A DNA stretch of 64,000 nucleotides from Cloacibacterium caeni (GTDB lineage Bacteria > Bacteroidota > Bacteroidia > Flavobacteriales > Weeksellaceae), in the NCBI RefSeq assembly GCF_907163105.1, contig NZ_OU015321.1:310001-374000 (forward strand). Direction: 5' to 3'. Shown piece by piece: positions 30,415-63,733 of the stretch. Each line of letters opens with the position of its first letter. The stretch's first letter is position 1. Under the pieces are notes generated by a model, which did not search any database, had not been told where the DNA came from, and worked only from the letters and a program-made list of their open reading frames with translations. Both the position numbers and the translations under genes were made by a program.

Positions 30415-30425
30415 GATATCTTTTT

Positions 30426-34986: not shown

Positions 34987-35315
34987 TATTCAAAACTTAG
35001 TTTTCCTTGTTGATAATTTTTGCTTTTGAAATATTTTATTTTTTCTTCGGCAACCTTCAAAATCTCGGAACAATTATTTTCATAAATAAGTGATTCTGCA
35101 ACACTATCACTTAACAGACTTAAAGTTAGGTCGTGTTCGGATATTTTCAGAATTTCAGCAAGCGCAGGAATCATTTCTTTATTTGCCGAACGTTCTCCGC
35201 GTTCAATTTTACTTAATGTCGATGGGTCAATATCAATAAAAGCGGCAACTTTTCTTAATGGAAGTCCCTCATGTTCACGACCTTCTCTTATTATTTCTCC
35301 AAAAGTTTTTTTCAT
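34986..35315 (-). CDS. XRE-family controller protein of the restriction locus
   Basis: A 109-residue regulator with a Cro/C1-type HTH: FGEIIREGREHEGLPLRKVAAFIDIDPSTLSKIERGERS, about residues 5-45. The start MKKTFGEI at 35315 is chosen because longer readings to 35417 would run through the promoter. Upstream, GGACAA-N3-TTGTCC (35350-35364) overlaps the -7 box, the arrangement of a repressor or controller operator. As in other restriction loci it probably delays or limits nuclease expression. It is the first gene of the seven-gene minus-strand operon. Confidence 0.85.
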   Translation of the reverse strand: MKKTFGEIIREGREHEGLPLRKVAAFIDIDPSTLSKIERGERSANKEMIPALAEILKISEHDLTLSLLSDSVAESLIYENNCSEILKVAEEKIKYFKSKNYQQGKLSFE

Positions 35316-35349
35316 TTTTCTGAAAAATTTATTCTTGAAAATATTATTA

Positions 35350-35371
35350 GGACAATATTTGTCCAAATATA
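35350..35371 (-). promoter_or_regulatory. Operator and -7 box of the defence operon
   Basis: GGACAATATTTGTCC at 35350-35364 is a perfect dyad (GGACAA, 3-bp centre, TTGTCC). On the minus strand it follows directly on TATATTTG (35364-35371), a perfect TAnnTTTG box, and so covers the expected transcription start. The -33 TTG is not evident. Confidence 0.55.
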
Positions 35372-35468
35372 GTAAAAAAATTCTTACTTTAATTTTGAAA
35401 TTCAAAGAGAACAGCAAAGAGAAATATTTAATTTGTAAAAGATAGAAATCCTTAAAAATAGAATGTAA

Positions 35469-35537
35469 TTTATTTTTCGCGGGAGTTACTAATAATGAAA
35501 TCGTAATTTAACACTGAACGATTCATTGATGTAATCT
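35469..35537 (-). pseudogene. 3' remnant of an HNH gene (left copy of a 69-bp direct repeat)
   Basis: On the minus strand this stretch encodes ITSMNRSVLNYDFIISNSREK and a stop, the same C-terminus as the intact HNH gene that ends at 39449. It differs from the right copy (39448-39516) at 5 of 69 bases, all in synonymous positions (CGT/AGA, TCA/TCG, AAC/AAT, CGC/CGT). A TAG lies just upstream of it, where similarity ends. It is therefore the tail of a second, once functional homologue, not a duplicate of the neighbour. Confidence 0.75.
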
Positions 35538-39384: not shown

Positions 39385-39447
39385 TTCAAGAAAAATAAAT
39401 TTGGATGTTCAGATTATGTAAAACAAAATTCTTTTTTTACAGAAAAA

Positions 39448-39516
39448 TTTATTTTTCACGGGAATTACTAATAATGAAATCGTAATTTAACACCGATCTA
39501 TTCATTGATGTAATCT
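39448..39516 (-). repeat. Right copy of the 69-bp direct repeat
   Basis: It forms the last 21 codons plus stop of the intact HNH gene. With the left copy (35469-35537) it brackets the 3.9-kb cassette holding the SEC-C nuclease gene. Confidence 0.85.
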
Positions 39517-40852: not shown

Positions 40853-40951
40853 TCAATTCTCTTGCTCAATATACAAATCGGGAATTTTCATTTCCTGTGC
40901 GGTAAATCTTATTGCCAGCTGAAATAAGGTTTTGTTTTCGTGAAGATTCAT
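40853..40951 (-). pseudogene. abiEii: AbiEii-type nucleotidyltransferase toxin, truncated after 32 codons
   Basis: The ATG at 40951 overlaps the stop of the antitoxin gene (ATGA), the usual coupling of AbiE pairs. The peptide MNLHENKTLFQLAIRF...PDLYIEQEN resembles the N-terminus of AbiEii toxins, where the next residues would lead to DYWVT; here a TGA follows Glu-Asn, and nothing similar continues downstream. The toxin is thus lost and the antitoxin orphaned. Confidence 0.65.
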
Positions 40952-41670
40952 TTGATATTCCAGTTTTTTACTGTTGGTAAAATAGTTTCAATATTTGGAA
41001 AACTATATGTTGAAATAGCATTGAGCGACTTCTTCAGTATTTCAGGTTCTCCAATTTTCAGAAATTCCAAAACTGCTCCCAATAACGCTCTCGTAGATGG
41101 CGGATATTTTAAAGCCAATCGTTGCATTGTGGAGATTTCCGCTTCATTGATTGTTTTTATGATTTCGATAATTCTCAAAACGGATTCATCAAGCGAAGTA
41201 TCTGGAATCTTTTTAATTTGGTTAATAGCGTCCAATATCTGAAGAAATGGAATATTTTCTTTCGTGATCGTATTTTTCTGCTTGATAAAAGAAATAGTAA
41301 ATCGTCCTCTTTTGAAAGTAGGACGAATTTCATTCTTTCCAATCTGAATGGTATTGCTGACTTGTGTTGTAAGTCCCTGCTCATTGTAAATACTCAAACC
41401 AGTAAGGTAACCTACGACTTTTCCATTTTCTTCAAGTAAATCCTTTACAATCTGTTGTTTTGGCGGTTCCAATTTTCCAAATACAGTTTCTTCTGGCTTG
41501 TAGAACTTTCCTTTTGCCAGTTTTTCAATCTTCCCCGAAACCGCCATTCTATTCAATGCTTTTATTATAGCTTCCTTGCTTTCCACCTGTTTGCTAAATT
41601 CTTCATAGGTGAAAACAAATCCTTTAGGGAATCGATTAATCGTATTTACTATGTAATCAGATGTTTTCAT
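40948..41670 (-). CDS. abiEi: AbiEi antitoxin family protein (DUF6088)
   Basis: Antitoxin and repressor of type IV AbiE toxin-antitoxin systems, 240 residues. The N-terminal winged HTH (SDYIVNTINRFPKGFVFTYEEF and ALNRMAVSGKIEKLAKGKFYKP) is the DUF6088/AbiEi_4 form, and the middle part GYLTGLSIYNEQGLTTQVSNTIQI is typical. AbiEi proteins bind inverted repeats upstream of their own gene; such a repeat lies at 41701-41730. Its toxin is reduced to 32 codons, so it may survive as an orphan regulator or as an anti-toxin against related elements. Confidence 0.8.
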   Translation of the reverse strand: MKTSDYIVNTINRFPKGFVFTYEEFSKQVESKEAIIKALNRMAVSGKIEKLAKGKFYKPEETVFGKLEPPKQQIVKDLLEENGKVVGYLTGLSIYNEQGLTTQVSNTIQIGKNEIRPTFKRGRFTISFIKQKNTITKENIPFLQILDAINQIKKIPDTSLDESVLRIIEIIKTINEAEISTMQRLALKYPPSTRALLGAVLEFLKIGEPEILKKSLNAISTYSFPNIETILPTVKNWNIK

Positions 41671-41684
41671 TGCTTATCTCTTTG

Positions 41685-41730
41685 CAAAGATAAAACAAAA
41701 TGTCCAGTTTTTTAGTAAATAAACTGGACA
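41685..41730 (-). promoter_or_regulatory. Promoter and inverted-repeat operator of the AbiEi gene
   Basis: On the minus strand TATCTTTG (41685-41692) is a perfect -7 box 15 bases before the ATG. Just upstream, TGTCCAGTTT (41701-41710) and AAACTGGACA (41721-41730) form a perfect 10-bp inverted repeat over the -33 region, as expected for AbiEi autorepression. Confidence 0.6.
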
Positions 41731-41765
41731 AAATATTAATTACTTTCACTTCCTCATGTCTTAGT

Positions 41766-41796
41766 AAAAAAAGAATGAGAACCTAAGTCCTCATTC
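41766..41796 (-). terminator. Terminator of the candidate small RNA
   Basis: GAATGAG (41773-41779) pairs with CTCATTC (41790-41796). Read on the minus strand the hairpin is followed by seven T residues. Confidence 0.7.
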
Positions 41797-41829
41797 GATA
41801 TCCATAGCCAGATTACCAGTGTCTCAATG
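41766..41829 (-). ncRNA. Candidate small RNA upstream of the AbiEi gene
   Basis: On the minus strand a promoter at 41866-41835 is followed by about 64 nt and then an intrinsic terminator (stem GAATGAG/CTCATTC with a seven-T run). The transcript contains no useful reading frame but has internal complementary segments. It ends about 35 bases upstream of the AbiEi operator. No known RNA family was recognised. Confidence 0.5.
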
Positions 41830-41834
41830 TTTTG

Positions 41835-41866
41835 TAAAGATAATAAATATTCTAAAAAAAAATCAA
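41835..41866 (-). promoter_or_regulatory. Promoter of the candidate small RNA
   Basis: On the minus strand TTG (41866-41864), a 21-base spacer and TATCTTTA (41842-41835) match TTG-N21-TAnnTTTG with one mismatch. Confidence 0.45.
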
Positions 41867-41910
41867 CTATCCTCAAAAACCATAACCAATTAATACTAAT
41901 CATTTCAAAA

Positions 41911-42236
41911 ACCTGCGTAATTTGAACACTGGGTTCTACTCAACGTGGGTAAATCAGCTACACCCAACTTGCAAACCTGCGTAAAAAAGATACAACCTAA
42001 AGCCAATCTCTCTCCATTTTTTTTTCTTCAAAATCCAATCTATTTTAAAATCAAAGAGATAAAGCCTAAAACAAGCGTCCATAAAGCGTTTTCAGACCTC
42101 TGAAAAATTTTCATATTGCTATAAAACTTTTATTGCAAGATGTGTCTTTGTATATACAACTTTTCAAGTTGCTGATACAAAAACGATCTTGCCTTTTTGT
42201 AAAAGGGGAAAAACTGCGGAACTTGTTTTTTCTTTC
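41911..42236. repeat. Long diverged repeat A, left copy
   Basis: A ~325-bp non-coding stretch that recurs in the same orientation at 63134-63457. Shared blocks in order include ACCTGCGTAATTT, TACACCCAA, GGTAAAAAAGATACAA, GCGTTTTCAGAC and TTGCAAGATGTGTCTTTGT. It contains two CCTGCGTAA motifs and lies directly before the replication-like genes, so an origin or regulatory function is possible. Confidence 0.7.
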
Positions 42237-42389
42237 AGAAATTGAGTTCAAGAATCTAAATTCATCTAAATTATTCTTTTTTAATCTTCCGAGATTCCAA
42301 ACTCGTCTAAATTGTTCTTATTTAGCCCACACCGCATGAACACTATTGTTTTAGAATACAAATCGAATGAAATTTGCATAAAAAATATT

Positions 42390-42647
42390 ATGGCAGTAGA
42401 TATAATTACGAAAGAAGACCTAAAAGAATTTAAAATTGAACTTTTGCAAGATTTACAGAAAATTCTGAATTCCAGCAAAACGATAGAGAAAAAATGGTTA
42501 AAATCTAACGAGGTTAGAAAAATTTTGAAAATTTCCTCAGGGACATTACAAACGCTTCGTATCAATGGAACTTTACAGTATTCCAAAGTTGGCGGAACAA
42601 TTTATTACAATTATCAGGACATCGAAAAAATGTTAAATCAGAAATAA
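42390..42647 (+). CDS. Small helix-turn-helix protein of the element core
   Basis: An 85-residue protein from the ATG at 42390. After a coiled stretch (EDLKEFKIELLQDLQKIL), an excisionase/MerR-like HTH_17 domain follows: KWLKSNEVRKILKISSGTLQTLRINGTLQYSKVGGTIYYNYQDI. Such proteins precede replication genes in Bacteroidota mobile elements and act as regulators or excision factors. It is 8 bases before the initiator-like gene, and the three genes to 44053 look like one operon. Longer starts at 42312 and 42336 exist but add no recognisable domain. Confidence 0.75.
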   Translation: MAVDIITKEDLKEFKIELLQDLQKILNSSKTIEKKWLKSNEVRKILKISSGTLQTLRINGTLQYSKVGGTIYYNYQDIEKMLNQK

Positions 42648-42654
42648 TTTTAGT

Positions 42655-43449
42655 ATGAATTACATTTTTCATCTCACTGGTTTTTACGACAAAATACAGG
42701 AAGACAATCGACTGAATCCTACTCACATCAGTCTTTACCTTGCTTTGTTTCAGTTTTGGAATCTCAATCGTTTTCGAAATCCAATCAGTATTTCGCGAAA
42801 CGAAATGATGAAACTGAGCAAAATTTCTGCTTTTGGAACTTACCATAAATGCATTAAAGAGTTGCAAGAATTTGGATATATTGAATACATCCCATCATTC
42901 AATCCATACAAAGGGAGTTTGGTGAACCTATTTAGTTTTGATAATTCTGAGGCAATTCAAAATTTGAATATGAAGCGTATCAAAAAACAAACAACCTCTG
43001 AACAGGTAGCGAACAGGATGCATATCAAAATCGATACAGGTTCTGAACAAGCACTGATACCTTCTATAAACAGTACAAACTCATTAAACAATAAACAATT
43101 AAAAGATAATGAGCACTCAAGAATTTTTGATGAAGGAAATTTGCTTTTGAAGAAAAAAAATAGGTCGATTGAAATTCCACCCAACATTTCAGAAGTTGAA
43201 ATATATTTTCTGGAAAGGGATTCCACAAAACTTGAAGCCGAAAGGTTTTTCAATCATTACGAAAGCAATGGTTGGCTCGTCGGCGGAAAATCGAAAATGA
43301 AAAATTGGGAAGCCGCAGCAAGAAATTGGCTTATAAATTCGAAAAAATTCAATAATACCTCAAATTCCACTAGTTCCGCGAATGGAGTGGAGTTAAAACC
43401 AAATCACCTCAATGCAACTACCAACAAATCCTATCGAGATGAGTTATGA
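42655..43449 (+). CDS. Replication initiator / primosomal-like winged-helix protein
   Basis: A 264-residue protein. The N-terminal 105 residues look like the winged helix found in plasmid and phage initiators (NRLNPTHISLYLALFQFWN, KISAFGTYHKCIKELQEFGYIEYIP). A charged linker follows, then a C-terminal DnaD/DnaT-like patch, ERFFNHYESNGWLVGGKSKMKNWEAAARNWL (about 198-240), typical of proteins that load helicase. The next gene, overlapping by 38 bases, is a DnaC-like ATPase, which supports a joint role in starting replication of the excised element. A related helicase-loader regulator cannot be excluded. Confidence 0.65.
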   Translation: MNYIFHLTGFYDKIQEDNRLNPTHISLYLALFQFWNLNRFRNPISISRNEMMKLSKISAFGTYHKCIKELQEFGYIEYIPSFNPYKGSLVNLFSFDNSEAIQNLNMKRIKKQTTSEQVANRMHIKIDTGSEQALIPSINSTNSLNNKQLKDNEHSRIFDEGNLLLKKKNRSIEIPPNISEVEIYFLERDSTKLEAERFFNHYESNGWLVGGKSKMKNWEAAARNWLINSKKFNNTSNSTSSANGVELKPNHLNATTNKSYRDEL

Positions 43450-44053
43450 CTACAGAGAAGTTGTAATGTGGCTACGAAAATGCGGTAGAAAGCATCTCGG
43501 CAAAAACTTTATTATTCCCGAAAACGAAAAAGGAATTATTTTCGGAATGCTCGCTTGGTTTCTTCAGGACGAATTAGTAACCAAAGAAATGAATATCGAT
43601 CTCACTAAAGGAATAATGTTAAGCGGACCAATTGGATGCGGAAAAACTACACTTTTCAAGCTGATGGGAAAAATACCTTCCAAGAGAAAAAATTTCATGA
43701 TGACTTCTACACGCCAAATTGTTTCAGAATTTATGCAGTCTGGCTATGAAATTTTAGAAAAATATTCTCGTGGGAGTCTATACAATGATCATCGCACTCC
43801 AAAAAACTACTGCTTTGATGACCTCGGTAGCGAATCTGCCTCCAAATATTTCGGAAACGACTGCAATGTAATGGCAGAAATTCTCCTAACTCGCTACGAT
43901 ATTTTCAAGGAAAAAGGAATCATAACGCATCTCACCACCAATCTTACCGCCGGAGAAATAGAAACGATCTATGGGAATCGTCTTCGCTCCAGAATGAGGG
44001 AGATGTTTAATCTTTTTGGGTATGATGAAACTTCATGGGATAAGAGGAGATGA
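43412..44053 (+). CDS. DnaC/IstB-like AAA+ ATPase
   Basis: A 213-residue P-loop ATPase with Walker A GPIGCGKTT near residue 71 and Walker B in YCFDDLGSES, followed by sensor-like LTTNLTAGEIETIYGNRLRSRMREMF with an arginine-finger region. It lacks a transposase partner, so a helicase-loader (DnaC) role beside the initiator-like protein is more likely than IstB. Two starts fit: 43412 (used here) and ATG 43439 (MSYDYREV), both overlapping the preceding gene. Iteron-like repeats begin 43 bases after its stop. Confidence 0.75.
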   Translation: MQLPTNPIEMSYDYREVVMWLRKCGRKHLGKNFIIPENEKGIIFGMLAWFLQDELVTKEMNIDLTKGIMLSGPIGCGKTTLFKLMGKIPSKRKNFMMTSTRQIVSEFMQSGYEILEKYSRGSLYNDHRTPKNYCFDDLGSESASKYFGNDCNVMAEILLTRYDIFKEKGIITHLTTNLTAGEIETIYGNRLRSRMREMFNLFGYDETSWDKRR

Positions 44054-44659
44054 TTCGCAGTTTAATTCGTCCTTCCAAAAATGTTAATTGGTTCAGAATG
44101 GTGTCAAATCTTAATGTATAATGACCTCTAGAATTACCTTATATTGGTTTGATTGTGAGTGTGATAGACTTTATTTAGACATTTGAATGGTGTCAAGAAT
44201 GGTGTCAGATTTTAAAGGACAAAGACAATTTTCATTTTATCTAAAATTTTCATTATGTGAATATTAAGCGTTACAACTGTGTTCGAATGGTGTCAGGAAT
44301 GGTGACATTATTTTTAATAATTTTAATTTAGATATATCATCCGATTCGAAGATGTGACAATAATCTTTTTCCAATAGAAAAGCTTACGTGATTTGGTTCA
44401 CATTTGGGTCAAAGATTCTGATAAAAACTATTAATTTCTTTAGAGAATACTTGTATCATGTTGTTAATCAACGATTATATAAATGTTAGCTAAGCTTATT
44501 TGGGTCATATTTGGGTTCAGTTCTATTTGAAAATAAACTCTCCAGCAAATTAAATAACTCTCCCAAACAATACTTTCACTTTAATAAATCTAATTCTTGA
44601 AAATATTTTTGAATACTTTTACATGGATTAATATTCAATTAGTGTATTAGTTGTGATTC
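44054..44659. repeat. Iteron-rich intergenic region
   Basis: GAATGGTGTCA occurs at 44096-44106, 44185-44195, 44197-44207 and 44285-44295, with a one-base variant at 44297-44307; two pairs have a 12-bp period. A second family, ATTTGG(G/T)TCA, occurs as two tandem pairs of 11-bp units at 44391-44412 and 44498-44519. The 606 bp lack coding potential. Position between initiator/loader genes and the primase-helicase gene suggests a replication origin. Confidence 0.65.
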
Positions 44660-47623
44660 ATGAATGATCCAAATCAAGAGTACATTTCATTTCTTCGGTC
44701 TCTTTTTAAAGGAAGAGAAGATGTTTTTGCGATTCGGTGGGAGAAAAACGGGAAAAGTGGCTATATGCCTTCTTACACTTATGATCCTTTTCATTTTCGA
44801 ATCCATAAACAGAATGGCGGAACGTTTCAAAATTATTCACATAAAACCTATTTGCCATTAACTGATAATGAACTCCAAAAGCATTTGGAAGGTCAACAGC
44901 AAATCGGGATTTATCCTTTGCAAAAAGACAATGCCTCATGGTTTTTGGTGGCTGATTTTGATAAAGAAAATTGGCAAAAAGAAGCGGTTTCTTTTTTGAA
45001 TTCATGTGAAAAATTAAATATTCCTGCATATTTGGAACGGTCTCGTTCGGGAAATGGAGGTCATGTTTGGATATTTTTCGAAAAACCTTTTCCTGCAATC
45101 AAAAGTAGAAAAATCTTCATTTCAATTCTAGAGAAATTAGGGATTTTTTCTTTGTTTGATAAGAGTTCGAGTTTTGACAGATTATTTCCAAATCAGGACT
45201 TTCTTTCAGGAAAAGGTTTGGGAAATCTAATTGCATTACCTTTTTTTAAGCCATCTATTGAAAAGGGAAATAGTTGCTTTATTAATCCGAATACTTTCGA
45301 ACAATTTGAAAATCAATTGAGTTTTCTGCAAAATATTAAGCGAGTTTCCATTGAGCACCTAGAAGGTTTGTATCAGAAAGAAATTTCAAATTCTGAGACA
45401 AAGGTGATAATCAAAAGCAAAAATTTACAAATCTCTTTGGACAATATTGTAAAAATAAGCAGATTTGGTTTACCACAGATACTCATCAATTTCTTAAAAG
45501 AGGAATTAAATTTTGCAAACACCGAATTTTTTGTAAAAAAGCAATCGGGTAGAAATACTTTTGGAACCAATCGTTATTTTAAATTGGTAGCAGAAACCGA
45601 AAACGAGGTTCTTATCCCAAGAGGATTTATTGGTAAACTTATTCGATTTTGTAAAGAGAATAGCATTAACCACGAATTTTCAGACATGAGATTGAAAAAA
45701 TTATCGGTCAATTATGAATTTAACGCAACTTTGAGAAATCATCAACAAAAAGCAATTGAAGCGGTTGAAAAGAAAGATTTCGGAGTCATAGTTGCGCCAC
45801 CAAATTCAGGGAAAACTTTGGTAGGTCTCAAAATAATTTCAGAAAAGAAGCAACCAGCACTCATAATCGTTCATCGAAGACAATTGTTGGAGCAATGGTG
45901 TGAAAGAATAGAATCATTTCTAGGCATTCCTAAAAGAGAAATTGGAATCATTGGTTCGGGTAAAATGAAAATTGGTAAGCAAATCACAGTTGCAACCATT
46001 CAAAGTCTGCCGAAATATTTGGAAGATATTGTTGAAAGGTTTGGAACTATAATTATTGATGAATGCCACCATATTCCAGCAGAATCATTCCGAAATACCA
46101 TTAAGAAACTTAAAACTTTCTATTTGTATGGATTAACGTCGACTCCGTTTCGAAAATATAATGACGGGAAAATAATTTTCACACACATTGGTGAAATTAT
46201 TACCCAAATAAAACCAGAAGACGTAGAAAATTTCAAACCTACGGAAATTGTGATTCGAAAAACATTGTTGGATGTTCCTTTCAATTCAAAAACAGACAGT
46301 TTTGAAACTTTATCAAAAATTTTGATTCACGACACCAATCGAAATAGATTAATTCTGAACGATGTGGAACGTGAGTTGGATACAGGCAAAAAGGCGGTTG
46401 TCATTACTGAAAGAAAAGAGCACATCGATTCTTTAAACTTATTTTTAAAGCAGTTTTACGAAGTGGTAACTTTGAGCGGTGACGATTCTGAAAATTCACG
46501 AAAATCTAAATGGCAGAATTTGCATCAAGGTAATTTTCAAGTGGTGATAACAACAGGACAATATTTTGGTGAAGGAACGGATTTATCAAGTATTAACAGT
46601 CTGTTTTTAGTGTATCCGTTTTCATTTGAAGGAAAAATGATTCAATACATTGGGAGAGTTCAACGTTCGGAAATCAACCCTATAATTTATGATTATTGTG
46701 ACCATAAAATTGATTGTTTAAACAAATTATTTCTTAAGCGAAACACTTATTATCGTAAAATTACCAGAAAAGCAACGCTTTTTGATGATATAAAAGAGGA
46801 GTTAACACCAATCGATTCGACAAAAATTTTTGAAAATAAAATTAAGGTAGCGATTGAAGATTTGGAGTTTCATTATAGAAGTGTTGCCTTCAAATATCCA
46901 ATTCAGGAAATGAACGCAACTTTTGAATTTCATATCGAAAATATGGAGATTAGACCAGAACTTGAGGTGTTGAAGCCTTATTTTGTAAAGGTGTTGAAAT
47001 CCAGAACAATTAATGTGGAGATTTCTGCGGAATTCGAAAGAGGTAAGTTAATTGCACAAAATGCCATATCAAGTGATATTGAACGAATAAACGAAGAAAT
47101 TGTAGAAGGTGTAAAAATTCAGTTTCTGAATAAAGAACTCATTGGAAGAAATAAATTTCACGAGAAAAACGTACTTACAGCAGAAGAATTACAGAATCAG
47201 GAAAAACTCTTCAATGATGCTGAACAAATATTACAGCAAATTTTAGTAAACAGAAACTATAAACATTCAGCACATGTTTTGTTTCTTGCTGAAAAGCACA
47301 AAAGTCAGATAATGAAAATTCGATTTGTATTACAGCCGTTTTCATTTGTGTTTCTTTTAGCAGGAGGAGATCATCATTACATAGTGTTGGAAACTTTAGA
47401 CACTGAAGAAGCAACCTACATTTGGAAAACTGGTAAAAGCAAAACTTCAGTCATCAATGCCGTAATGAAAATTGATAATCAACTTACTTTCATTCGAGAA
47501 AACGGAAGGCAAATGTATTTGGAGACGAATCCAAAAGATTTTTCGAGAATTCTCCATGATTATTCAGATGATAAAAAAGGATTTATTAATTGGAAAAGCC
47601 AATTAGAAGAAATATTGCTTTAG
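44660..47623 (+). CDS. TOTE-type archaeo-eukaryotic primase fused to a superfamily 2 helicase
   Basis: A 987-residue fusion. Residues 1-200 fit the primase fold of TOTE conflict-system proteins: WFLVADFDKENW with Asp99 and Asp101 (catalytic DxD) and SRSGNGGHVWIFF with His135. A DEAD/DEAH-like helicase follows: Walker A APPNSGKT near 380, IIIDECHHIP at 464-473, then a C-terminal helicase lobe with TTGQYFGEGTD and QYIGRVQRS. The last 300 residues are unassigned. It probably primes and unwinds element DNA; the same domain set is also found in restriction-linked conflict systems, so a defence role is possible. Confidence 0.75.
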   Translation: MNDPNQEYISFLRSLFKGREDVFAIRWEKNGKSGYMPSYTYDPFHFRIHKQNGGTFQNYSHKTYLPLTDNELQKHLEGQQQIGIYPLQKDNASWFLVADFDKENWQKEAVSFLNSCEKLNIPAYLERSRSGNGGHVWIFFEKPFPAIKSRKIFISILEKLGIFSLFDKSSSFDRLFPNQDFLSGKGLGNLIALPFFKPSIEKGNSCFINPNTFEQFENQLSFLQNIKRVSIEHLEGLYQKEISNSETKVIIKSKNLQISLDNIVKISRFGLPQILINFLKEELNFANTEFFVKKQSGRNTFGTNRYFKLVAETENEVLIPRGFIGKLIRFCKENSINHEFSDMRLKKLSVNYEFNATLRNHQQKAIEAVEKKDFGVIVAPPNSGKTLVGLKIISEKKQPALIIVHRRQLLEQWCERIESFLGIPKREIGIIGSGKMKIGKQITVATIQSLPKYLEDIVERFGTIIIDECHHIPAESFRNTIKKLKTFYLYGLTSTPFRKYNDGKIIFTHIGEIITQIKPEDVENFKPTEIVIRKTLLDVPFNSKTDSFETLSKILIHDTNRNRLILNDVERELDTGKKAVVITERKEHIDSLNLFLKQFYEVVTLSGDDSENSRKSKWQNLHQGNFQVVITTGQYFGEGTDLSSINSLFLVYPFSFEGKMIQYIGRVQRSEINPIIYDYCDHKIDCLNKLFLKRNTYYRKITRKATLFDDIKEELTPIDSTKIFENKIKVAIEDLEFHYRSVAFKYPIQEMNATFEFHIENMEIRPELEVLKPYFVKVLKSRTINVEISAEFERGKLIAQNAISSDIERINEEIVEGVKIQFLNKELIGRNKFHEKNVLTAEELQNQEKLFNDAEQILQQILVNRNYKHSAHVLFLAEKHKSQIMKIRFVLQPFSFVFLLAGGDHHYIVLETLDTEEATYIWKTGKSKTSVINAVMKIDNQLTFIRENGRQMYLETNPKDFSRILHDYSDDKKGFINWKSQLEEILL

Positions 47624-47750
47624 TAAGTATAAATATTTTCTTGACACCTGAAATTAAAAACACAAAGATAATCACCACATTAACATTCTTTCAATTGAGT
47701 ATCGGCAAACACTAAAAAAATAAAAAAAAAGAAAGCAAAGTTTTGTAGTC

Positions 47751-47860
47751 AGGAAAATGTGATGCAATATCAAGCCATAAAGGTTTTTCTGAAAAAGTTT
47801 TGTGTCATTAAAAATTTAGCCCCAAAATTTTTCTGAAAAAATATTGCAGCACATTTTCCT
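47751..47860. repeat. 20-bp inverted repeat after the primase-helicase gene
   Basis: AGGAAAATGTGATGCAATAT at 47751-47770 is the reverse complement of 47841-47860 except for one base. The 70-base interval holds two copies of the palindrome TTTTTCTGAAAAA (47784-47796 and 47828-47840), the second touching the right arm. It could be a single-strand origin, an oriT-like site or a structured RNA. Confidence 0.6.
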
Positions 47861-47892
47861 TCCACGAGAGTGGAGGACTTTCTTTTTTTCTT
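47858..47892 (+). terminator. Possible terminator distal to the primase-helicase gene
   Basis: CTTCCAC and GTGGAGG pair around GAGA, followed by ACTTTC and a long T-rich stretch. It lies 235 bases after the stop codon, so it would give an unusually long 3' untranslated region that includes the inverted repeat. Confidence 0.35.
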
Positions 47893-47917
47893 TTTCTTTT
47901 GAAAAATTTTTGACAGA

Positions 47918-47995
47918 TTCTTGAAGTTAGTTCATAAATTCTTAAAAAAATCAAAATTCTTACAACTTGCGAAAATAAAGTATCCGGTTCGAATG
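47918..47995. repeat. Diverged repeat B, left copy
   Basis: The stretch shares TCTTGAAGTTA, AATCAAAATTCTTACAAC, TGCGAAAATAA and ACGAAT-like blocks with 63058-63130 in the same orientation. It ends where the ISAs1 remnant begins. The two copies bracket the efflux cargo. Confidence 0.55.
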
Positions 47996-48295
47996 TTGCA
48001 CACCGTAAACGCATGGGCGGGTCTGAACAAAATTAGTCTAGGTCAGGTAAAGACGGAGGAAAGAAGTAATGAAATTGTGGCCATACCCGAAATCTTGGAT
48101 TTGTTGTTTGTCGAGAAGAGCATTGTCACGATCGCGACCAAAAAGGACAGCGAATGACTCACAAAGCTTTTCGCTGCTCAACAAGATCGCCCTGAATCTG
48201 CTAAAAAACGGGAAAACATTAAAAGTGGTGAGCAAGGGAAACGCCTGAAAGCCGGATGGGATAGCAATTATTTCAAAAAATTACTAAATTTTTAG
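47996..48295 (+). pseudogene. ISAs1-family transposase, 3' remnant
   Basis: The frame from 47996 reads HTVNAWAGLNKISLGQVKTEE and SNEIVAIPEILDLL, a match to the DDE core of ISAs1 transposases (H-x-VSAWA...LGQVK..EKSNEI..IP). It breaks off near 48157; the C-terminal part resumes in other frames (LLNKIALNLLKNGKTLK, then GKRLKAGWDSNYF, ending at 48295). It lacks the N-terminal half and has at least two frameshifts. Its higher G+C than the surroundings also marks it as foreign. Confidence 0.7.
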
Positions 48296-48515
48296 ATGCG
48301 TTTGCCATCTTGTTGTATGTATTGGATAATTAACCACAATCAAAATTAATCACTTACCTTTGCTAGTTATAATTTCTGAATCATTTAACGTCACAGAAAT
48401 ACATTGGTGCATAGTCTTGAGAAATCACAAAAAGCCCTTTTAGAACTTTTTATATTTCGCATTTTTCTGATACCACAACACCATGTAATTAGTTATAATT
48501 TCCCAAGGAAATTCT

Positions 48516-49841
48516 CTAAACAAACCAAGCCTCAAACACACTTCCTCCTTCCACATTTCTGTACACAATATATCCGTTATGCGCTTCCATAATGGATTTC
48601 GCCAAGGTCAAACCGATTCCGGAACCATTCTGTCTTGTTGTGAAAAAAGGCAGGAAAATTTTGTCCTGAATTTTATCGTTTATTCCTTCTCCTGAATCCT
48701 GAATTCTTATGACGGTTCGGTTGTTCAGATATTGAGTTTCAATGGAGATTTCTTTTTTATCAGCACGAATTAAAGCGTTCATTGAATTGGTTAAAAGATT
48801 TACCAAAACCCTTTCCAACATTTTTTCGTCTGCATTCAGATTGAGTTCGGCGATGTTCAGATGCGTTTTGATATTTTTACTTTTAAACTCACTATCAAAA
48901 ATTTTTAGCACATTTTCAATCGTGATTTTCAGATTGAAGAGTGATTTTTTTGGTTTTGGTAATTCTGCAACTTGTCTATAACTGTCGATGAAATGGAGTA
49001 ATTGCTGTGATTTGGAGTTGATGATTTGCAGACTGCCTTTCATTTCATCTTGGTCATCTTTATTCAACTCATCTTGTTCGGCGAGATATTCCAAATTTTG
49101 AATCAAACTGTTTACGGGTGTCAAAGTGTTTAAAAGTTCGTGAGAAATCACTTTCATTAAATTATTCCAAGCTAATTTTTCTTTTTTATCGATGATTTTC
49201 TGAACCGATTCCAATGAAACTACGCAGAAAATTTGGTCAGGACTTTCAATTCTCGTTGTGCGGATTGAAAAGGATTGTTTTGAACTTTCCTTCACGGAAA
49301 TATCAATGAATTCTTGAGAATCTCGATAATTTGTACTTTCAATTAAATTATAAAAATTAGGAGATTTTTCTTTGTAGAAATCCCAATCATTGTATTTCGG
49401 AACTTGCAAAATGTTGAGAAATGTAGGATTGCAAAAGAAAACTTTCCAATCGTTTTCTGTTGAAGTTTTATTTAGAATTAGGAAACCAATTTCCTGTTTA
49501 GCCAAAATATTTTCGTACAATAATTTGAAGGAAGTGAGTTGCGTGTTCTCGTTTTTGGCTTGATAGTAAAGTTTTACGGCTTCATTTTTCAGTTCATTAG
49601 TATCATCTTCCTTTGGGAAAAGTGTAAAATCTTTTCTTCGGATGGAAGTGATGATCTTCTCGGTTTCAGCGATTTTTTGGTTGAGTAAAATCCAAGAATA
49701 CCCCAAAAACAAAAACCCAATTCCCGAAAAAAGTAAAGCAGTGATATACTTTTTGGCAATAAAAAAATCATATCCGAAAAACAGAAAAACAATGCACAAA
49801 AGCACCAAGATTATCCACTGAAAAGAAACCGCCATTTTCAT
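48516..49841 (-). CDS. Sensor histidine kinase (NtrB-like)
   Basis: A 441-residue kinase with two membrane helices near the N-terminus (WIILVLLCIVFLFFGYDF and ITALLFSGIGFLFLGYSWILL), a PAS-like domain (about 100-215), HisKA with the phosphoacceptor His234 in KVISHELLNTLTPV, and HATPase_c ending GSGIGLTLAKSIMEAHNGYI. The start is the ATG at 49841, one base after the regulator's stop (TAAGATG), so both are translationally coupled. It has no extended periplasmic loop, so it may sense the membrane or use the PAS domain. Partner: the sigma-54 regulator just upstream. Confidence 0.88.
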   Translation of the reverse strand: MKMAVSFQWIILVLLCIVFLFFGYDFFIAKKYITALLFSGIGFLFLGYSWILLNQKIAETEKIITSIRRKDFTLFPKEDDTNELKNEAVKLYYQAKNENTQLTSFKLLYENILAKQEIGFLILNKTSTENDWKVFFCNPTFLNILQVPKYNDWDFYKEKSPNFYNLIESTNYRDSQEFIDISVKESSKQSFSIRTTRIESPDQIFCVVSLESVQKIIDKKEKLAWNNLMKVISHELLNTLTPVNSLIQNLEYLAEQDELNKDDQDEMKGSLQIINSKSQQLLHFIDSYRQVAELPKPKKSLFNLKITIENVLKIFDSEFKSKNIKTHLNIAELNLNADEKMLERVLVNLLTNSMNALIRADKKEISIETQYLNNRTVIRIQDSGEGINDKIQDKIFLPFFTTRQNGSGIGLTLAKSIMEAHNGYIVYRNVEGGSVFEAWFV

Positions 49842-49842
49842 C

Positions 49843-51183
49843 TTATAAACCAAATTTTTCCATTCTTCTATAAAGCGAAGCTCTCGTCAATCCCAACGCT
49901 TCAGAAGCAAGAGAGATGTTTCCTTTGTATTTTTTCAAGGCGTTTGCAATCATTTTTTCTTCCATTTCCTCCAAATTTAATGAAGTTAAATTTTCGGATG
50001 CTGAAATAGGATTGTTTTGCAATGCGAGATTAATTTTTCCGTCTTCCGAAAGAATAATCGCTCGTTCAATAGTGTGTTCCAATTCACGAATATTTCCCGG
50101 AAAATGATAATTTGTAAGTTCCTCATCATTTTCAAATTCCAAATCTTCTCTCGCGTATTTTTTCTGATATTTTTGAATGAAAAATTCAGACAAGTTTTGC
50201 AAATCTTCCTTTCTTTCCCTCAACGGTGGAATTTCAATTTCTACGGTATTGATTCTATAATACAAATCTTCTCGGAACTTACCTTCACCAACAAACTTTT
50301 TCAAATCTGCATTGGTTGCAAAAATAAATCGAATATCTAAAAACCGTTCTTTGTTCTCGCCAATTCTCGTCAGTTTTTTGGTTTGAATTAAAGTCAGGAT
50401 TTTTTGCTGTAATTGAGGCGAAAGATTCCCAATTTCATCTAGAAAAACTGTTCCGCCATTGGCATTTTCTATTTTTCCTGCTTTATCTGTTTTTGCATCT
50501 GTAAATGCACCTTTCGCATAGCCGAAAAGTTCTGCTTCAAACAAATTTTCAGAAAGAGAACCTAAATCGATATGAACAAAAGGTTCACTATTTCGTTTAG
50601 AATTTTTGTGAATGTATTCTGCCAAAACAAATTTTCCTGTTCCATTTTCGCCCAAAAGCAAAATGTTGGCGTCGGTTGGCGAAACTTTTTTCAAAGTTTT
50701 CATCACTTCCTGCATTTTTGGGGATTTCGTTTCCAAATTGTATTCAGAAATTGAGGTTTGCAGGTTTTCCCACTGTTGAAGTTTTTTGTTTTTTCGGGAA
50801 ATATCTACGGCAAGATTTACAGAAGCATAAAGTTTTTCATTGTTCCACGGTTTTAGTATAAAATCGGTTGCGCCCTTTTTCAGAGCTTCCACAGCGAGTT
50901 CCACTTCTCCATAAGCCGTCATTAAAATCACAGGAATATTTTTGTTGATTTCCTGAATTTCTTTTAGCCAATATAAACCTTCTTTTCCGTCCTCAAAACC
51001 GCGACGAAAGTTCATATCCAAAAGAATGACATCAACATTATTTTCATTAAGAGCGGAAATTATTTTCTTTGGTGAATTGATGGTAATCACTTCCTCAAAG
51101 AATTTTTTCAACCAAACTCTCGCCGAAAAAAGAATGTCTTCGTCGTCGTCAACAATTAAAATAGTGGCTTCTTTCTTTCTCAT
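49843..51183 (-). CDS. Sigma-54-dependent response regulator (NtrC family)
   Basis: A 446-residue activator: receiver domain with Asp56 in DVILLDMNF, AAA+ domain with Walker A GENGTGKF near 178 and Walker B GGTVFLDEIG, and a Fis-type HTH at the end (NISLASEALGLTRASLYRRMEKFGL). The sigma-54 contact loop reads GAFTDA at 225-230 instead of GAFTGA. It is divergent from the HlyD gene. Two repeats of TGTCCG-N4-TG(T/A)ACAC, 21 bp apart, in the gap are likely enhancer sites. It probably induces the efflux operon in response to the NtrB-like kinase. Confidence 0.9.
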   Translation of the reverse strand: MRKKEATILIVDDDEDILFSARVWLKKFFEEVITINSPKKIISALNENNVDVILLDMNFRRGFEDGKEGLYWLKEIQEINKNIPVILMTAYGEVELAVEALKKGATDFILKPWNNEKLYASVNLAVDISRKNKKLQQWENLQTSISEYNLETKSPKMQEVMKTLKKVSPTDANILLLGENGTGKFVLAEYIHKNSKRNSEPFVHIDLGSLSENLFEAELFGYAKGAFTDAKTDKAGKIENANGGTVFLDEIGNLSPQLQQKILTLIQTKKLTRIGENKERFLDIRFIFATNADLKKFVGEGKFREDLYYRINTVEIEIPPLRERKEDLQNLSEFFIQKYQKKYAREDLEFENDEELTNYHFPGNIRELEHTIERAIILSEDGKINLALQNNPISASENLTSLNLEEMEEKMIANALKKYKGNISLASEALGLTRASLYRRMEKFGL

Positions 51184-51195
51184 TTAAACTTTCAT

Positions 51196-51234
51196 TGTCC
51201 GTTTCTGTACACCTACTGTCCGAAAATGAACACT
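51196..51234. promoter_or_regulatory. Tandem enhancer-like sites upstream of the efflux operon
   Basis: TGTCCGTTTCTGTACACC (51196-51213) and TGTCCGAAAATGAACACT (51217-51234) share TGTCCG-N4-TGnACAC. They are 21 bp apart, two helical turns, and each is an imperfect dyad. Their place about 60-100 bp before a possible promoter fits NtrC-type upstream activating sites. Confidence 0.5.
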
Positions 51235-51338
51235 TTTTGTCTCATTCAATTTTTGTACATCTTATAAATCAATAACTTACAAACTCATTTTTTAATGGTA
51301 TAACAATAGTGTAATTATTTATAAATCAGAAACGTATA

Positions 51339-52580
51339 ATGGATACGAAAATAGAGAAAAAACAATCTAAATTCAAAATAATTTTAATTGGCGTTTTGGC
51401 TTTGGCTTTTTTGGGGATTTCTGCTTTTTATTTTTTGAAACAAAAGAAAACCTATAATGTGAAAGCGGAAGACATTCAAATTTCGGAAGTCACTTTCGGT
51501 AAATTTGAAGATGTAATGCTGATTACCGCTCAAACGCAATCGCTGAATTCTTCTTTGGTAAATGTTTTGGAAGGTGGTGCTGTAAAGGAAATTTATGCAG
51601 AAGACGGACAATTGGTCAACAAAGGAGCACCTTTGGCGAGAGTATACAATCCGAATACGGAATTTAATTATCTGAATCAAGAGACGGGAATTATGCAACA
51701 GATTTCGCAGATGAGAAATTCACTTTTAGAACTGAAAAACCAAGAATTCAACCAAAATAAAGAATTGCTTCAAGCACAAAACGATTATAATGTGGCTTTG
51801 CAAAATTTTAATCTTCAAAAGCGACTTTATGATGCTGAAATTGGCAAAAAAACCGATTACGATATGGCTTCTCAAAACCTGAACTATCAGCAAAAAAGAA
51901 AAAATATTACAGAACAAGGATTAGTAAACGAAAGAAACTCCCGAAATCAGCAAATTTCCGCAATTAGTAATTCCATCAATCAAATGCAGAAAAGTCTGAA
52001 TGTTTTGAAGAACAACAAGAACAATTTCTTGATTTTAGCGCCTGTTTCCGGAAGGTTGTCTTCATTCAACATTTCATTGGGACAAAATTTGACAAGCGGT
52101 GAAAGTATCGGAAAGATTGATTTGATGGACGGTTATAAACTCGTTGCAAAAGTGGATGAATACTACATCAATAAACTTCAAGTCGGAATCAAAGGGACTT
52201 TGGAAAGCAATGATAAAACTTACGAAATCATAGTCACTAAAATTCTGCCTGAAGTAAAAGACGGACAGTTTTCTGCCGAACTCGGATTTGTGGATGAAAA
52301 GCCAAATAATTTGAAAATCGGGATGACTTTCGGCGTAAAATTGAAACTTTCGCAAGACACGCAAAGCGAAATGATTTCCAAAGGAAATTTCTACAAAGAC
52401 ACCTCAGGGAAATGGATTTTCGTGATTCAAGGTGACAACGCAGTAAAACGAAATATTCAACTAAACCGTGAAAACCAAATGTATTACGAAGTAACTTTGG
52501 GATTAAAAGCGGGCGAAAAAGTAATCGTGTCGGATTATGGTGATTTTAAAAATTATGAAGAACTTAATATTAAAAAGTAA
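51339..52580 (+). CDS. HlyD/MacA-type efflux periplasmic adaptor
   Basis: Membrane-fusion protein of 413 residues linking an inner-membrane ABC transporter with TolC. One N-terminal membrane anchor (IILIGVLALAFLGISAFYFL, about 13-32), a lipoyl/biotinyl-like domain split around a long coiled-coil hairpin (about 115-225, rich in Gln, Asn and Leu), then a beta-barrel with GRLSSFNISLGQNLTSGESIG and GLKAGEKVIVSDY at the end. It is the first gene of the plus-strand efflux operon and is followed by the outer-membrane barrel gene after 45 bases. Confidence 0.88.
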   Translation: MDTKIEKKQSKFKIILIGVLALAFLGISAFYFLKQKKTYNVKAEDIQISEVTFGKFEDVMLITAQTQSLNSSLVNVLEGGAVKEIYAEDGQLVNKGAPLARVYNPNTEFNYLNQETGIMQQISQMRNSLLELKNQEFNQNKELLQAQNDYNVALQNFNLQKRLYDAEIGKKTDYDMASQNLNYQQKRKNITEQGLVNERNSRNQQISAISNSINQMQKSLNVLKNNKNNFLILAPVSGRLSSFNISLGQNLTSGESIGKIDLMDGYKLVAKVDEYYINKLQVGIKGTLESNDKTYEIIVTKILPEVKDGQFSAELGFVDEKPNNLKIGMTFGVKLKLSQDTQSEMISKGNFYKDTSGKWIFVIQGDNAVKRNIQLNRENQMYYEVTLGLKAGEKVIVSDYGDFKNYEELNIKK

Positions 52581-52625
52581 TTGTAATAATACCGCTAACT
52601 GTATTGTCTTTATTAAAAAAGAATT

Positions 52626-54707
52626 ATGAAAAAACTACTTATACTTGCCATTGGTTTAGCCCCATTTTTGGGATATTCCCAAGAAAGAAATCCTTCCGAT
52701 TCTATTTTAAAAACGAAAGAAATTCAGGAAGTTTTATTGAAATCTCAAAAGAAAAAACAATTTTCTGATCACGCTAATTACACTTTCGATAAAGAAGCAT
52801 TGGAAAAAGCGAGACATTCCAAAGATTTGTTGACAACACTTCCCGAATTGCAATTAGACCCGATTTCAAATACTGTAACAAGCATTAAAGGCGGAAAAAT
52901 CTTGTTTTTGATAAACGGAATCGAAGCAAGCGACAACCAAATAAAAAGCATTGCACCAACCAATGTGGTGAGGGTTGAATATTTTGACATTCCACCAACA
53001 AGGTTTGTGACAAGAGCAGATACTGTGGTCAATATTGTGACGAGAAATCCTGAAAAAGGCTACAGTTACGGCGCAGATATTACTTCGGCTTTTATAACGG
53101 GTTTTGTAAATGGCTCTGCTTATGGAAATTATACCAAAGGCAAAAATGATTTCGGATTGGAATACAATATCAATCTCCGAGATTACGACAACCGGATTGT
53201 TGATAAAATCTACGAATACGACCTAAATAATCTTCGTTATCGCTCTGCTGAACAACAGAAAGACCATTTTGGATACACCGACCAAAACATTACCGCAAGA
53301 TACACCAATGCAGAAACAGGAAAATATGCTTTTCAAGCCAAACTGAACTTAAATATTAGTGATTCTTTCAGCAATGGAAACGGACAAAGTGTTTTCTCGC
53401 AGGGAAATCTACAAAATGAGCACGGAACTGTTCACAATCGTGCCTCCAATTACTTGAATCCGACTTTGGATTTATACTATTCTAAAAATATCGGTAAAAA
53501 AGATGAATTGAGTTTGAATTTAGTTGGTTCGCATTACGACACCAATTCCACACAATTTGACAGAGAATGGATTTTAAATTCCAATCAAGATGTTTTCAAC
53601 AACGATATGATTTTGAAAGCGAAACAAAATGGAATTGTAGCAGAAGTAGCACATTCCCACAGTTTTGAAAAAGGAAAATTAAATTCGGGATATCGAATTT
53701 CCAATAATTCCATTTCGAACGATTTGCAGAATTTGGCGGGAAATTCAAATTACACCGTAAATTATCTTCAACAATATCTTTACACCGAATATTCAGGGAA
53801 GAAAGATAAATTCACTTACAGACTTGGTTTAGGATTGACCAATATTCACAATAAAAGTGCGGAAACTACTTTTGATGAATGGGCTTTCACTCCGAAAATT
53901 GTTTTAGGATATCAATTGAAAAATAATCAGAGTATTCGATTTTCGAGCAGTTATATTCCACAAAGTCCTAGCAGTGATGCTTTGAGCAGTAATGTTGTGC
54001 AAGTAGTTCCGAATATTGTAAGAACAGGAAATCCATATTTGAAATCGCAGCATTCCTTTGGAAATAATTTGGTTTATTCCTTCAATTCAAAGTATTTTGA
54101 CCTGAATGCAAATGCTTTTTATTGGTTTAGAAATCGTGCAAGCAATCAATATTATGTTTTAAATCAAAATGTCGACGGTTATTTACTGACTTATGAAAAT
54201 GCAAAAAATTCACAGCAATACGGAATTCAATTAACAGGTTCGGTAAAACCTTTCGGTAATAATCTCTTGGTTGTAAAAATGGTTGTTGCTCCTGCTACTG
54301 AACAATTGACGACAAGCAGAGGATACACATTCAAAAATAATTATATCGGAAATTATTTTAATATTTCAACAGAGTATAAATCGTTTTCCGCACAATATCA
54401 GTTCAACATTCCTTATTACACAATTAATGGTGCATTTCTTTCAACAAACGAAAATGCGAGCCATTTCTTTGCAAGTTATAAATTGAGGGAATGGTCTTTT
54501 ACAGCAGGAATGTATTGGATTGGAATGCCATCAGAATACAAAACCAAAAGTCAGTCTGAAAGTTTGGTTAATTACACGCAACACACTCAAATTTTTAACA
54601 ACAAAAATATGTTTGTTCTCGGTTTGAGTTACGATCTTTCAAGCGGTAAAAAACTGCAGATTCAAAAGAAATTGGAAAATTCTACTGCGCCTGCGGCAAC
54701 TTTTTAA
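52626..54707 (+). CDS. Outer-membrane beta-barrel protein (TonB-receptor-like, plug-containing)
   Basis: A 693-residue protein with a signal peptide (MKKLLILAIGLAPFLGYSQ). About residues 30-140 form a short plug-like domain (SKDLLTTLPELQLDP...ILFLINGIEASDNQIKSI...VNIVTRNPEKGYSYG), and the rest is a large barrel of alternating strands typical of the Bacteroidota outer-membrane barrel family. It lacks the N-terminal carboxypeptidase-like domain of SusC proteins, and no TonB box is clear. It sits inside the efflux operon, which is unusual because TolC is also present; it may bind or take up the efflux substrate or signal. Confidence 0.75.
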   Translation: MKKLLILAIGLAPFLGYSQERNPSDSILKTKEIQEVLLKSQKKKQFSDHANYTFDKEALEKARHSKDLLTTLPELQLDPISNTVTSIKGGKILFLINGIEASDNQIKSIAPTNVVRVEYFDIPPTRFVTRADTVVNIVTRNPEKGYSYGADITSAFITGFVNGSAYGNYTKGKNDFGLEYNINLRDYDNRIVDKIYEYDLNNLRYRSAEQQKDHFGYTDQNITARYTNAETGKYAFQAKLNLNISDSFSNGNGQSVFSQGNLQNEHGTVHNRASNYLNPTLDLYYSKNIGKKDELSLNLVGSHYDTNSTQFDREWILNSNQDVFNNDMILKAKQNGIVAEVAHSHSFEKGKLNSGYRISNNSISNDLQNLAGNSNYTVNYLQQYLYTEYSGKKDKFTYRLGLGLTNIHNKSAETTFDEWAFTPKIVLGYQLKNNQSIRFSSSYIPQSPSSDALSSNVVQVVPNIVRTGNPYLKSQHSFGNNLVYSFNSKYFDLNANAFYWFRNRASNQYYVLNQNVDGYLLTYENAKNSQQYGIQLTGSVKPFGNNLLVVKMVVAPATEQLTTSRGYTFKNNYIGNYFNISTEYKSFSAQYQFNIPYYTINGAFLSTNENASHFFASYKLREWSFTAGMYWIGMPSEYKTKSQSESLVNYTQHTQIFNNKNMFVLGLSYDLSSGKKLQIQKKLENSTAPAATF

Positions 54708-54721
54708 AAATTCAAAAAAAT

Positions 54722-54778
54722 ATGATCACCCTAATTCTTGAAGCCATTCTCTACATCGTCAATATATTTCTAAAATAA
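54722..54778 (+). CDS. Possible 18-residue hydrophobic peptide
   Basis: A short frame (MITLILEAILYIVNIFLK) between the barrel and GIN-domain genes, ending 10 bases before the next ATG. It would form a single membrane helix with one acidic residue. It may be a real small membrane protein or chance; no homologue is known to me. Confidence 0.25.
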   Translation: MITLILEAILYIVNIFLK

Positions 54779-54788
54779 AATTAAAAAA

Positions 54789-55490
54789 ATGAAAACTATT
54801 ATTCTCACCTTATTAGTAAATCTTACTCTGAGTTCGTGCTTTACCATTAAAACCGATGGAAATGGCTCCTACGGAAATTATCAAAATTCTGATTATAATT
54901 CAGCAGAAAATTATTCCTCAAAACCGATGGAAAGTCGCGAGTTTTTTGTCTCCCACTTTTCAGAAATCAGAGCCAATTCAGGAATGAAATTTTTCATTAA
55001 AAAATCTGACAAGCAAAAAGTGGTCGTGAACTCAAATGCACTTGGATTAATTGTAGTTTCTTCTGAAAATGGCATATTGAAAGTGAAATATGACAATAAT
55101 AGCTCACTACAAAACGTAAAAACTGAAGTCACTGTTTATACCAATGATTTTAAAAAATTAGATGCTTCAAGTGCAGGAAGAATTTTTATTTCGGACGATT
55201 TTAAATTGGATAAACTCGCTTTGAATTTGCACAGTGCAGGTCAAATTTCAGGAAATATTTTTGCTGAAAAACTAAACATAGTTTCAACAAGTGCCTCGGG
55301 AATTGATGCGAATGTTCAAGCCAAAAATATTGATGTAGAAGCAACTTCCGCCTCAAAAGTAAAGTTAAGCGGAACAACCAATAAAATCAATGTGGAAGCA
55401 ACAAGTACTGCAAAAGTCTATCTTGAAAATTTGAAATATCAAAATCTGAATCAAGAAGTAACCTCTCTTGCAAAAGTGTACACGAAATAA
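54789..55490 (+). CDS. GIN-domain (DUF2807) lipoprotein
   Basis: A 233-residue lipoprotein: signal MKTIILTLLVNLTLSSC with lipobox Cys17, then a head GIN domain (FFVSHFSEIRANSGMKFFIKK...LKKLDASSAGRIFISDD) built of repeated beta-helix rungs rich in Ala, Ser and Gly, such as NIDVEATSASKVKLSGTTNK. GIN-domain proteins are putative auto-transporter-like adhesins or envelope factors with unproven function in Bacteroidota. It lies between the barrel and the ABC ATPase genes, 24 bases before the latter, so it is part of the efflux transcript. Confidence 0.8.
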   Translation: MKTIILTLLVNLTLSSCFTIKTDGNGSYGNYQNSDYNSAENYSSKPMESREFFVSHFSEIRANSGMKFFIKKSDKQKVVVNSNALGLIVVSSENGILKVKYDNNSSLQNVKTEVTVYTNDFKKLDASSAGRIFISDDFKLDKLALNLHSAGQISGNIFAEKLNIVSTSASGIDANVQAKNIDVEATSASKVKLSGTTNKINVEATSTAKVYLENLKYQNLNQEVTSLAKVYTK

Positions 55491-55514
55491 AATCAATCTC
55501 AAATTTCAAATAAA

Positions 55515-56237: not shown

Positions 56238-56327
56238 AATCAAACATTCATTCTATATACTAAAGTAAACCTAACAAGTTTCTGAAACTTGTTAGGTTTC
56301 AAAAAAAACTAAAAAGCAAAAATTGTT

Positions 56328-58763: not shown

Positions 58764-58770
58764 TTTCTCA

Positions 58771-58901
58771 ACACATTAGTCACATTAGAAGAAATACAAT
58801 GCGCAAAAAAGTTCACATAAGGTAAAAAATCGAAGATTTCAAACTAATGTGTTCTAAATCAGAAGTATGAGAATTAAAAAAAACTTATGTCACTAATGTG
58901 T
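58771..58901. repeat. 131-bp intergenic palindromic repeat, copy 1
   Basis: It begins ACACATTAGTCACATTAG and ends TTATGTCACTAATGTGT, so the ends are inverted repeats. It is alike throughout to 61610-61738. It lies between the two permease genes and looks like a small non-autonomous element or an extragenic palindromic unit. Confidence 0.65.
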
Positions 58902-58951
58902 CAAAAAATGGCACTACAAATTGAAAATTGAAACCTGAAACAAATAAAACT

Positions 58952-63042: not shown

Positions 63043-63057
63043 AAATTGTTAAGAAAG

Positions 63058-63130: not shown

Positions 63131-63133
63131 TTT

Positions 63134-63716: not shown

Positions 63717-63733
63717 ATTCCTGGAGAAACCAC
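63717..63733 (+). repeat. attR (17-bp direct repeat)
   Basis: ATTCCTGGAGAAACCAC, an exact copy of the tRNA-Phe 3' end at 22154-22170. Confidence 0.9.

Follow-up and report, generated by a model that had tools for sequence, protein, structure and literature searches.

A predicted replication origin within the initiator gene of a tRNA-Phe island in Cloacibacterium caeni, and a separate array of intergenic direct repeats

When direct repeats lie next to genes for replication proteins in an integrated island, do they mark the origin from which the island replicates? This question is raised by a non-coding stretch of 606 bases (44054-44659) in Cloacibacterium caeni, which fills the gap from the stop codon of a helicase-loader gene (44053) to the ATG of a primase-helicase gene (44660) and carries two families of repeats. 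The window analysed here, 64 kb in all, consists of bases 310001-374000 of the 2.72-Mb single-contig genome and contains a 41.6-kb island at tRNA-Phe, bounded by two copies of ATTCCTGGAGAAACCAC. The coordinates of all features, which refer to the window, are collected in Table 1.

Direct repeats between the loader and primase-helicase genes

The first-pass annotation had described in these 606 bases five units of one repeat (a single and two pairs at 12-bp spacing) and two pairs of another at 11-bp spacing, and this description was confirmed, the repeats being above chance. GAATGGTGTCA occurs exactly at 44096, 44185, 44197 and 44285, and a fifth copy at 44297, GAATGGTGACA, has one mismatch; the two pairs lie 100 bp apart. 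With one mismatch allowed, the 64-kb window has six matches, of which the sixth is at 20264; the expectation is 0.92, and none of 100 shuffles reached six. The cluster is the densest direct-repeat cluster of the window. Five copies of any 11-mer were obtained in 1 of 1000 Markov resamples of the 606 bp, and four of the five exact GAATGGTGTCA copies in the 2.7-Mb genome fall inside this region. The second family is looser (ATTTGGTTCA at 44391, ATTTGGGTCA at 44402 and again at 44498, ATTTGGGTTCA at 44509); its single copies occur at chance level, and its pair is unique to this region in the genome. By direct inspection, AATGGTGTCA and ATTTGGGTCA are identical at 7 of 10 positions, and the two families may perhaps be one. 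A known RNA was ruled out as the explanation of the repeats, as an Rfam scan of 41600-48500 gave no match.

We have compared this island with those of Epilithonimonas bovis, Chryseobacterium sp. Marseille-Q5410 and two further genomes, here called G032 and G375. The first-pass annotation had made its reading depend on the presence of the repeats in close relatives, and on this point the relatives are divided. The Chryseobacterium island, which is 98% identical to the present one throughout, has kept them, and in E. bovis a single unit, a GAATGGTGTCA pair and an ATTTGGG pair are present, followed by a WYL regulator gene in place of the primase-helicase gene. In G375 a different cargo starts directly after the loader and the repeats are absent, and in G032 a degenerate pair alone is left, even though the adjacent xis-initiator-loader genes are 91% and about 90% identical, respectively, to those of this island. 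No such intergenic repeats were found in the more distant modules of wider relatives. Thus, as far as these comparisons go, the module can persist while the repeats are lost.

Of 320 genomes of the family, only 3 have the GAATGGTGTCA pair, the reversed-sequence control giving none, and in a scan of 84,980 species the matches within Bacteroidota were the two known islands and one Prevotella metagenome-assembled genome; the matches outside Bacteroidota, in scattered phyla, are most likely due to chance or unrelated arrays. Between this island and E. bovis, 52 of the 53 motif positions are conserved, compared with 142 of 165 positions in their surroundings (p=0.008), and this better conservation argues for a function of the repeats in those islands that keep them.

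Organization of the island and its replication module

Table 1. Features of the island and their positions in the 64-kb window
Feature	Position	Strand	Remarks
Left attachment repeat ATTCCTGGAGAAACCAC	22154-22170	+	tRNA-Phe 3' end
Left-arm GGTGACC/GGTGACC pair	22274-22292	+	12-bp spacing; kept in four islands
Tyrosine integrase with arm-binding domain	22419-23675	+	just inside the left end of the island
Non-coding control region	41880-42250	+	precedes the module; another copy at 63100-63460
111-residue HTH_17 protein, excisionase-like	42312-42647	+	
264-residue DnaD/RepA_N-like initiator candidate	42655-43449	+	
Proposed intragenic origin boxes	43000-43051	+	ACARG cores at 43002, 43013, 43036 and 43047; two 11-bp pairs, 34 bp apart
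AT-rich TATAAACA-type tract beside the boxes	43063-43108	+	proposed unwinding region
213-residue DnaC-like helicase loader	43412-44053	+	
Single GAATGGTGTCA	44096-44106	+	
First GAATGGTGTCA pair	44185-44207	+	12-bp spacing
Second pair, GAATGGTGTCA/GAATGGTGACA	44285-44307	+	12-bp spacing
First ATTTGGK-TCA pair	44391-44411	+	11-bp spacing
Second ATTTGGGT-TCA pair	44498-44519	+	11-bp spacing; missing in E. bovis
987-residue TOTE-type AEP primase-SF2 helicase	44660-47623	+	cargo
Second copy of the control region	63100-63460	+	would precede the integrase in the circle
Right attachment repeat ATTCCTGGAGAAACCAC	63717-63733	+	

The backbone common to the compared islands consists of the integrase end, a three-gene module (41798-44062: HTH protein, 264-residue protein and loader) and the right end, and most of the island outside this backbone is exchangeable cargo. 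The 111-residue HTH_17 protein matches the phrog_66 excisionase (E=8e-5) and is by family a candidate excisionase-type protein. The initiator and loader genes that had been noted beside the repeats are borne out as those of a DnaD-like initiator candidate and a DnaC-like loader, but the primase-helicase, which had been counted with them, cannot be retained as part of the module. With an AEP-TOTE primase domain (PF22548, E=1.3e-82) and SF2 helicase domains it is of the TOTE type; a search of 32 loci gave no TOTE relative next to the module, and among the relatives examined only the Chryseobacterium island has TOTE at this place. It is therefore cargo, outside the replicon, and should not be taken for the primase of the island.

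In several relatives an RteC gene lies upstream of the HTH gene (the two that were checked match PF09357 with E values of 2e-81 and 3e-86), so that the HTH-initiator-loader set represents the control genes of RteC-type elements in Bacteroidota. In having an RteC gene ahead of these same genes, the relatives resemble the RteC-controlled elements of the CTnDOT type; unlike them, the present island has no RteC there, and an AbiEi-like gene (40948-41670) occupies the place, so that RteC-type control may have been lost here. Neither a relaxase nor a conjugation gene was recognised in the set of proteins searched. A related element, Marivirga plasmid p1 (NZ_CP129969.1), is a 25.3-kb circular record with an integrase, the HTH protein, the initiator and a loader with a frame break, and is possibly the circular form of a related island. 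Replication of the present island after excision, as the first-pass annotation had suggested, is plausible, given the initiator and loader neighbours in an integrase-bearing tRNA-Phe island and the existence of this circular relative with its integrase.

Several other features of the island were recorded. The two copies of the control region (about 330 bp, in the same orientation and about 74% identical to each other) are both kept in E. bovis and G032, with an invariant block TTGCAAGATGTGTCTTTGT; since the right copy would lie upstream of the integrase in the circle, both may be one control region that serves the integrase and the xis-replication genes. A segment of about 15 kb at 47945-63121, with a two-component system, efflux and other genes, is flanked by copies of a 39-bp sequence that are 90% identical; in E. 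bovis and G032 the right end runs on uninterrupted in its absence, so that the segment looks like a secondary insertion. A 71-bp direct repeat (35467-35537 and 39446-39516, 93% identical) flanks a gene for a 1233-residue Upx-like protein, as if this were a cassette. The stretch 26853-35417 is dense in defence cargo (Gabija GajA/GajB, two Eco57I-type methylases and an HTH regulator), and the paralogous neighbour genes at 56328-61381 (811 and 817 residues) have common DNA blocks of 73-76% identity.

Boxes and an AT-rich tract within the initiator gene

Residues 5-160 of the 264-residue protein match the DnaD-like phage family phrog_186. A structure model, built from 7 sequences with a mean pLDDT of 61, has a winged helix (residues 1-95), an unstructured linker (97-172) and C-terminal helices (178-234). 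Plasmid initiators make up three of the four best solved-structure matches of the N-terminal domain (4pql, Z 10.1, rmsd 2.4 over 86 residues; 4pt7, Z 9.7; 5kbj, Z 8.9), the margin over other winged helices being small. We take these three to be RepA_N Reps, and in the model the N-terminal domain has a winged-helix fold of the RepA_N type. The viral structure matches included DnaD-domain proteins, a lambda O N-terminal protein (a weak fold match) and replication-initiator proteins. Pfam scans of the protein and 20 relatives gave no match to the RepA_N family PF06970, and a sequence-profile search of solved structures returned nothing useful. By sequence the 264-residue protein does not belong to the RepA_N family, yet it appears to be built alike.

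A scan for clustered repeats in about 30 relatives placed the signal, in most of them, inside the initiator gene, approximately 300-530 bases from its start. In the gene of this island the boxes read GAACAGG, GAACAGG, ATACAGG and GAACAAG and the tract after them reads TCTATAAACAGTACAAACTCATTAAACAATAAAC, and together they occupy the stretch that codes for the disordered linker of the initiator. Most relatives, including islands, phages and the 25-kb plasmid, have the whole or part of the same layout, with short boxes 11 bp apart and then an AT-rich TATAAACA tract; the box pairs are absent in three loci (L034, L044 and L063) and the exact tract in four (L039, L042, L047 and L062). The Marivirga plasmid, from another order, has the same layout with different iterons, and in phage Freya_1 three TAATAGTAGTGATA-like repeats, unlike those of the island, precede a tract of this kind at the corresponding position. 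Judging from these genes, it is the iterons that vary, with position and tract unchanged. A Porphyromonas phage homologue was dropped as origin evidence, as it has the C-terminal domain alone in common and no TATAAAC tract.

We have also checked for constraint at the DNA level by shuffling synonymous codons within each of 20 non-redundant genes. TATAAACA was observed 23 times, against 3.1 ± 1.6 in the shuffles, 11-bp box pairs 24 times against 8.0 ± 2.0, and the 34-bp box arrangement 4 times against 0.14, all counts being inflated by the shared ancestry of the relatives. A shuffle confined to the linker gave the same answer (0 of 2000), and in five separately found viral genes 9 occurrences were observed against 2.16 in the shuffles (0 of 2000). 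The shuffles hence reveal a constraint that acts on the DNA itself. It could be objected that there is no intragenic origin and that the boxes and the tract merely reflect the protein sequence and codon habits of a low-complexity linker, which is rich in Asn, Ile and Gln and in which the peptide EQAL-PSINN is itself recurrent. However, the observed counts were not reproduced by synonymous shuffles of the whole gene, of the linker only or of the separately found viral genes, and ATA is the Ile codon at 34 of 42 positions in the tract but at 38 of 129 in the remaining linker; we consider this objection quite unlikely to be correct.

From these data, the origin of the island probably lies within the initiator gene, at about 42994-43110. 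In duplex stability, the intragenic tract is not the least stable DNA of the area. On the Marivirga plasmid the turn in GC skew is at base 259, some 1.4 kb from the intragenic boxes, a position that is compatible with an intragenic origin but weak as evidence.

Two known systems are built in a comparable way. The boxes bound by RepA_N Reps lie within the rep gene itself, and these proteins can do without their central linker (PMC5703833). The replicons pSK41 and pTZ2162 of Firmicutes likewise combine a DnaD-like winged-helix initiator with boxes in the linker-coding part of its gene, the part in which the predicted boxes and the DNA-level constraint are found here. Unlike these replicons, the island module has no RepA_N Pfam match, has an adjacent DnaC-like loader and occurs in islands and phages of Bacteroidota, and its box sequence and TATAAACA tract are its own. 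In phage lambda, the origin lies inside gene O, with iterons followed by an AT-rich stretch (PMC6022878), and both this arrangement within an initiator gene and the loader gene directly downstream have their counterparts here. The lambda iterons are 18-bp inverted repeats, whereas those of the island are short direct boxes in 11-bp pairs, and no O-family sequence match to the 264-residue protein was found at the thresholds used.

Possible roles of the intergenic repeats and meaning of the module

If the intergenic repeats were instead the iterons of the island origin, bound by the 264-residue initiator, several of their properties would be in keeping: they are real, clustered direct repeats in tandem beside initiator and loader genes, the AT-rich DNA around them contains the stretch of lowest stability in the area, and they are kept in E. 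bovis and the Chryseobacterium island. Yet they are not kept wherever the initiator is kept, as the islands of G375 and G032 and the wider relatives demonstrate, and by direct inspection they have no similarity to the conserved intragenic boxes, whereas the intragenic site is intact in these islands. The proposal of an initiator-controlled origin at 44054-44659 is therefore not upheld and seems to us quite improbable, the better candidate being inside the 264-residue gene.

What the intergenic array consists of is lineage-specific direct repeats about one helical turn (11-12 bp) apart, at the left edge of exchangeable cargo. Direct repeats with a spacing of one helical turn are known targets of excisionase-type proteins, at att sites and promoters (PMC7498355), and the arrays of 186 Apl, P2 Cox and lambda Xis share this spacing; in contrast to them, the island motif is a different one and its match to the island's own att arm is a short core only. 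GG(T/G)NNC pairs with 12-bp spacing are confined, in the window as a whole, to the left arm and the two intergenic pairs, which gives a hint of likeness, although the pattern was chosen post hoc and the likeness is limited to a GGTGNC core. By analogy, the repeats could be operators, ahead of the cargo, for an excisionase-type regulator, with the 111-residue HTH protein as the candidate, a role to which we would give slightly less than an even chance. In G032 the HTH protein is nearly the same and the repeats are lost, which the operator idea does not explain.

The loss of the repeats from two close relatives would also fit repeats without any present function, that is, duplication products drifting where cargo is swapped, and so would their variable copy number (five units plus two pairs here, three plus one pair in E. 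bovis) and the duplicated appearance of the units of about 100 bp. Between the two genera, however, the motif positions are better kept than their neighbours and the DNA between the duplicated motifs has diverged, so that we find this explanation unlikely. It is similarly doubtful that the repeats are operators for another cargo or host regulator such as the WYL protein: they stand directly upstream of the WYL regulator gene in E. bovis, but TOTE, not WYL, lies downstream of them in this island and in Chryseobacterium, and with one stray motif copy elsewhere in the genome a host regulon is not visible. A host regulon was accordingly rejected, the motif not being spread through the genome, and integrase arm sites are unlikely, as the intergenic repeats are some 20 kb from both island ends.

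The joint explanation towards which we lean combines an origin within the initiator gene with intergenic repeats that act as excisionase-type operators. The excised circle would express the xis-initiator-loader genes, and the winged-helix domain of the 264-residue protein would bind the ACARG boxes within its own gene. The adjacent TATAAACA-type tract would then open, and the C-terminal domain, together with the DnaC-like loader, would recruit the host helicase. The linker would be free to vary as protein because the DNA that encodes it would serve as the origin, and the HTH regulator on the intergenic repeats would control transcription into the cargo. The data show the positions and distribution of the repeats, the constraint on the DNA within the gene, the gene families and the island ends; binding, opening, loading, excision and regulation we infer.

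More generally, it is possible, though we stop short of calling it probable, that the xis-initiator-loader module represents a replicon family widespread in Bacteroidota, present in RteC-linked islands, in phages such as Freya and in the Marivirga plasmid. Its origin would be placed where a RepA_N-like initiator gene encodes the linker, the iterons would turn over by lineage and the TATAAACA unwinding tract would stay fixed, and the intergenic array would be an added control locus. A search of the open-access literature found no account of this replicon. By themselves, the intergenic repeats are of local interest, and, if the origin is indeed intragenic, they carry a caution that the nearest repeat cluster is not necessarily the origin, the conserved one here sitting within coding sequence. 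If the proposed family is real, mobile islands and phages of Bacteroidota would gain a minimal replicon that can be put to the test, and integrated islands with this gene set may amplify after excision.
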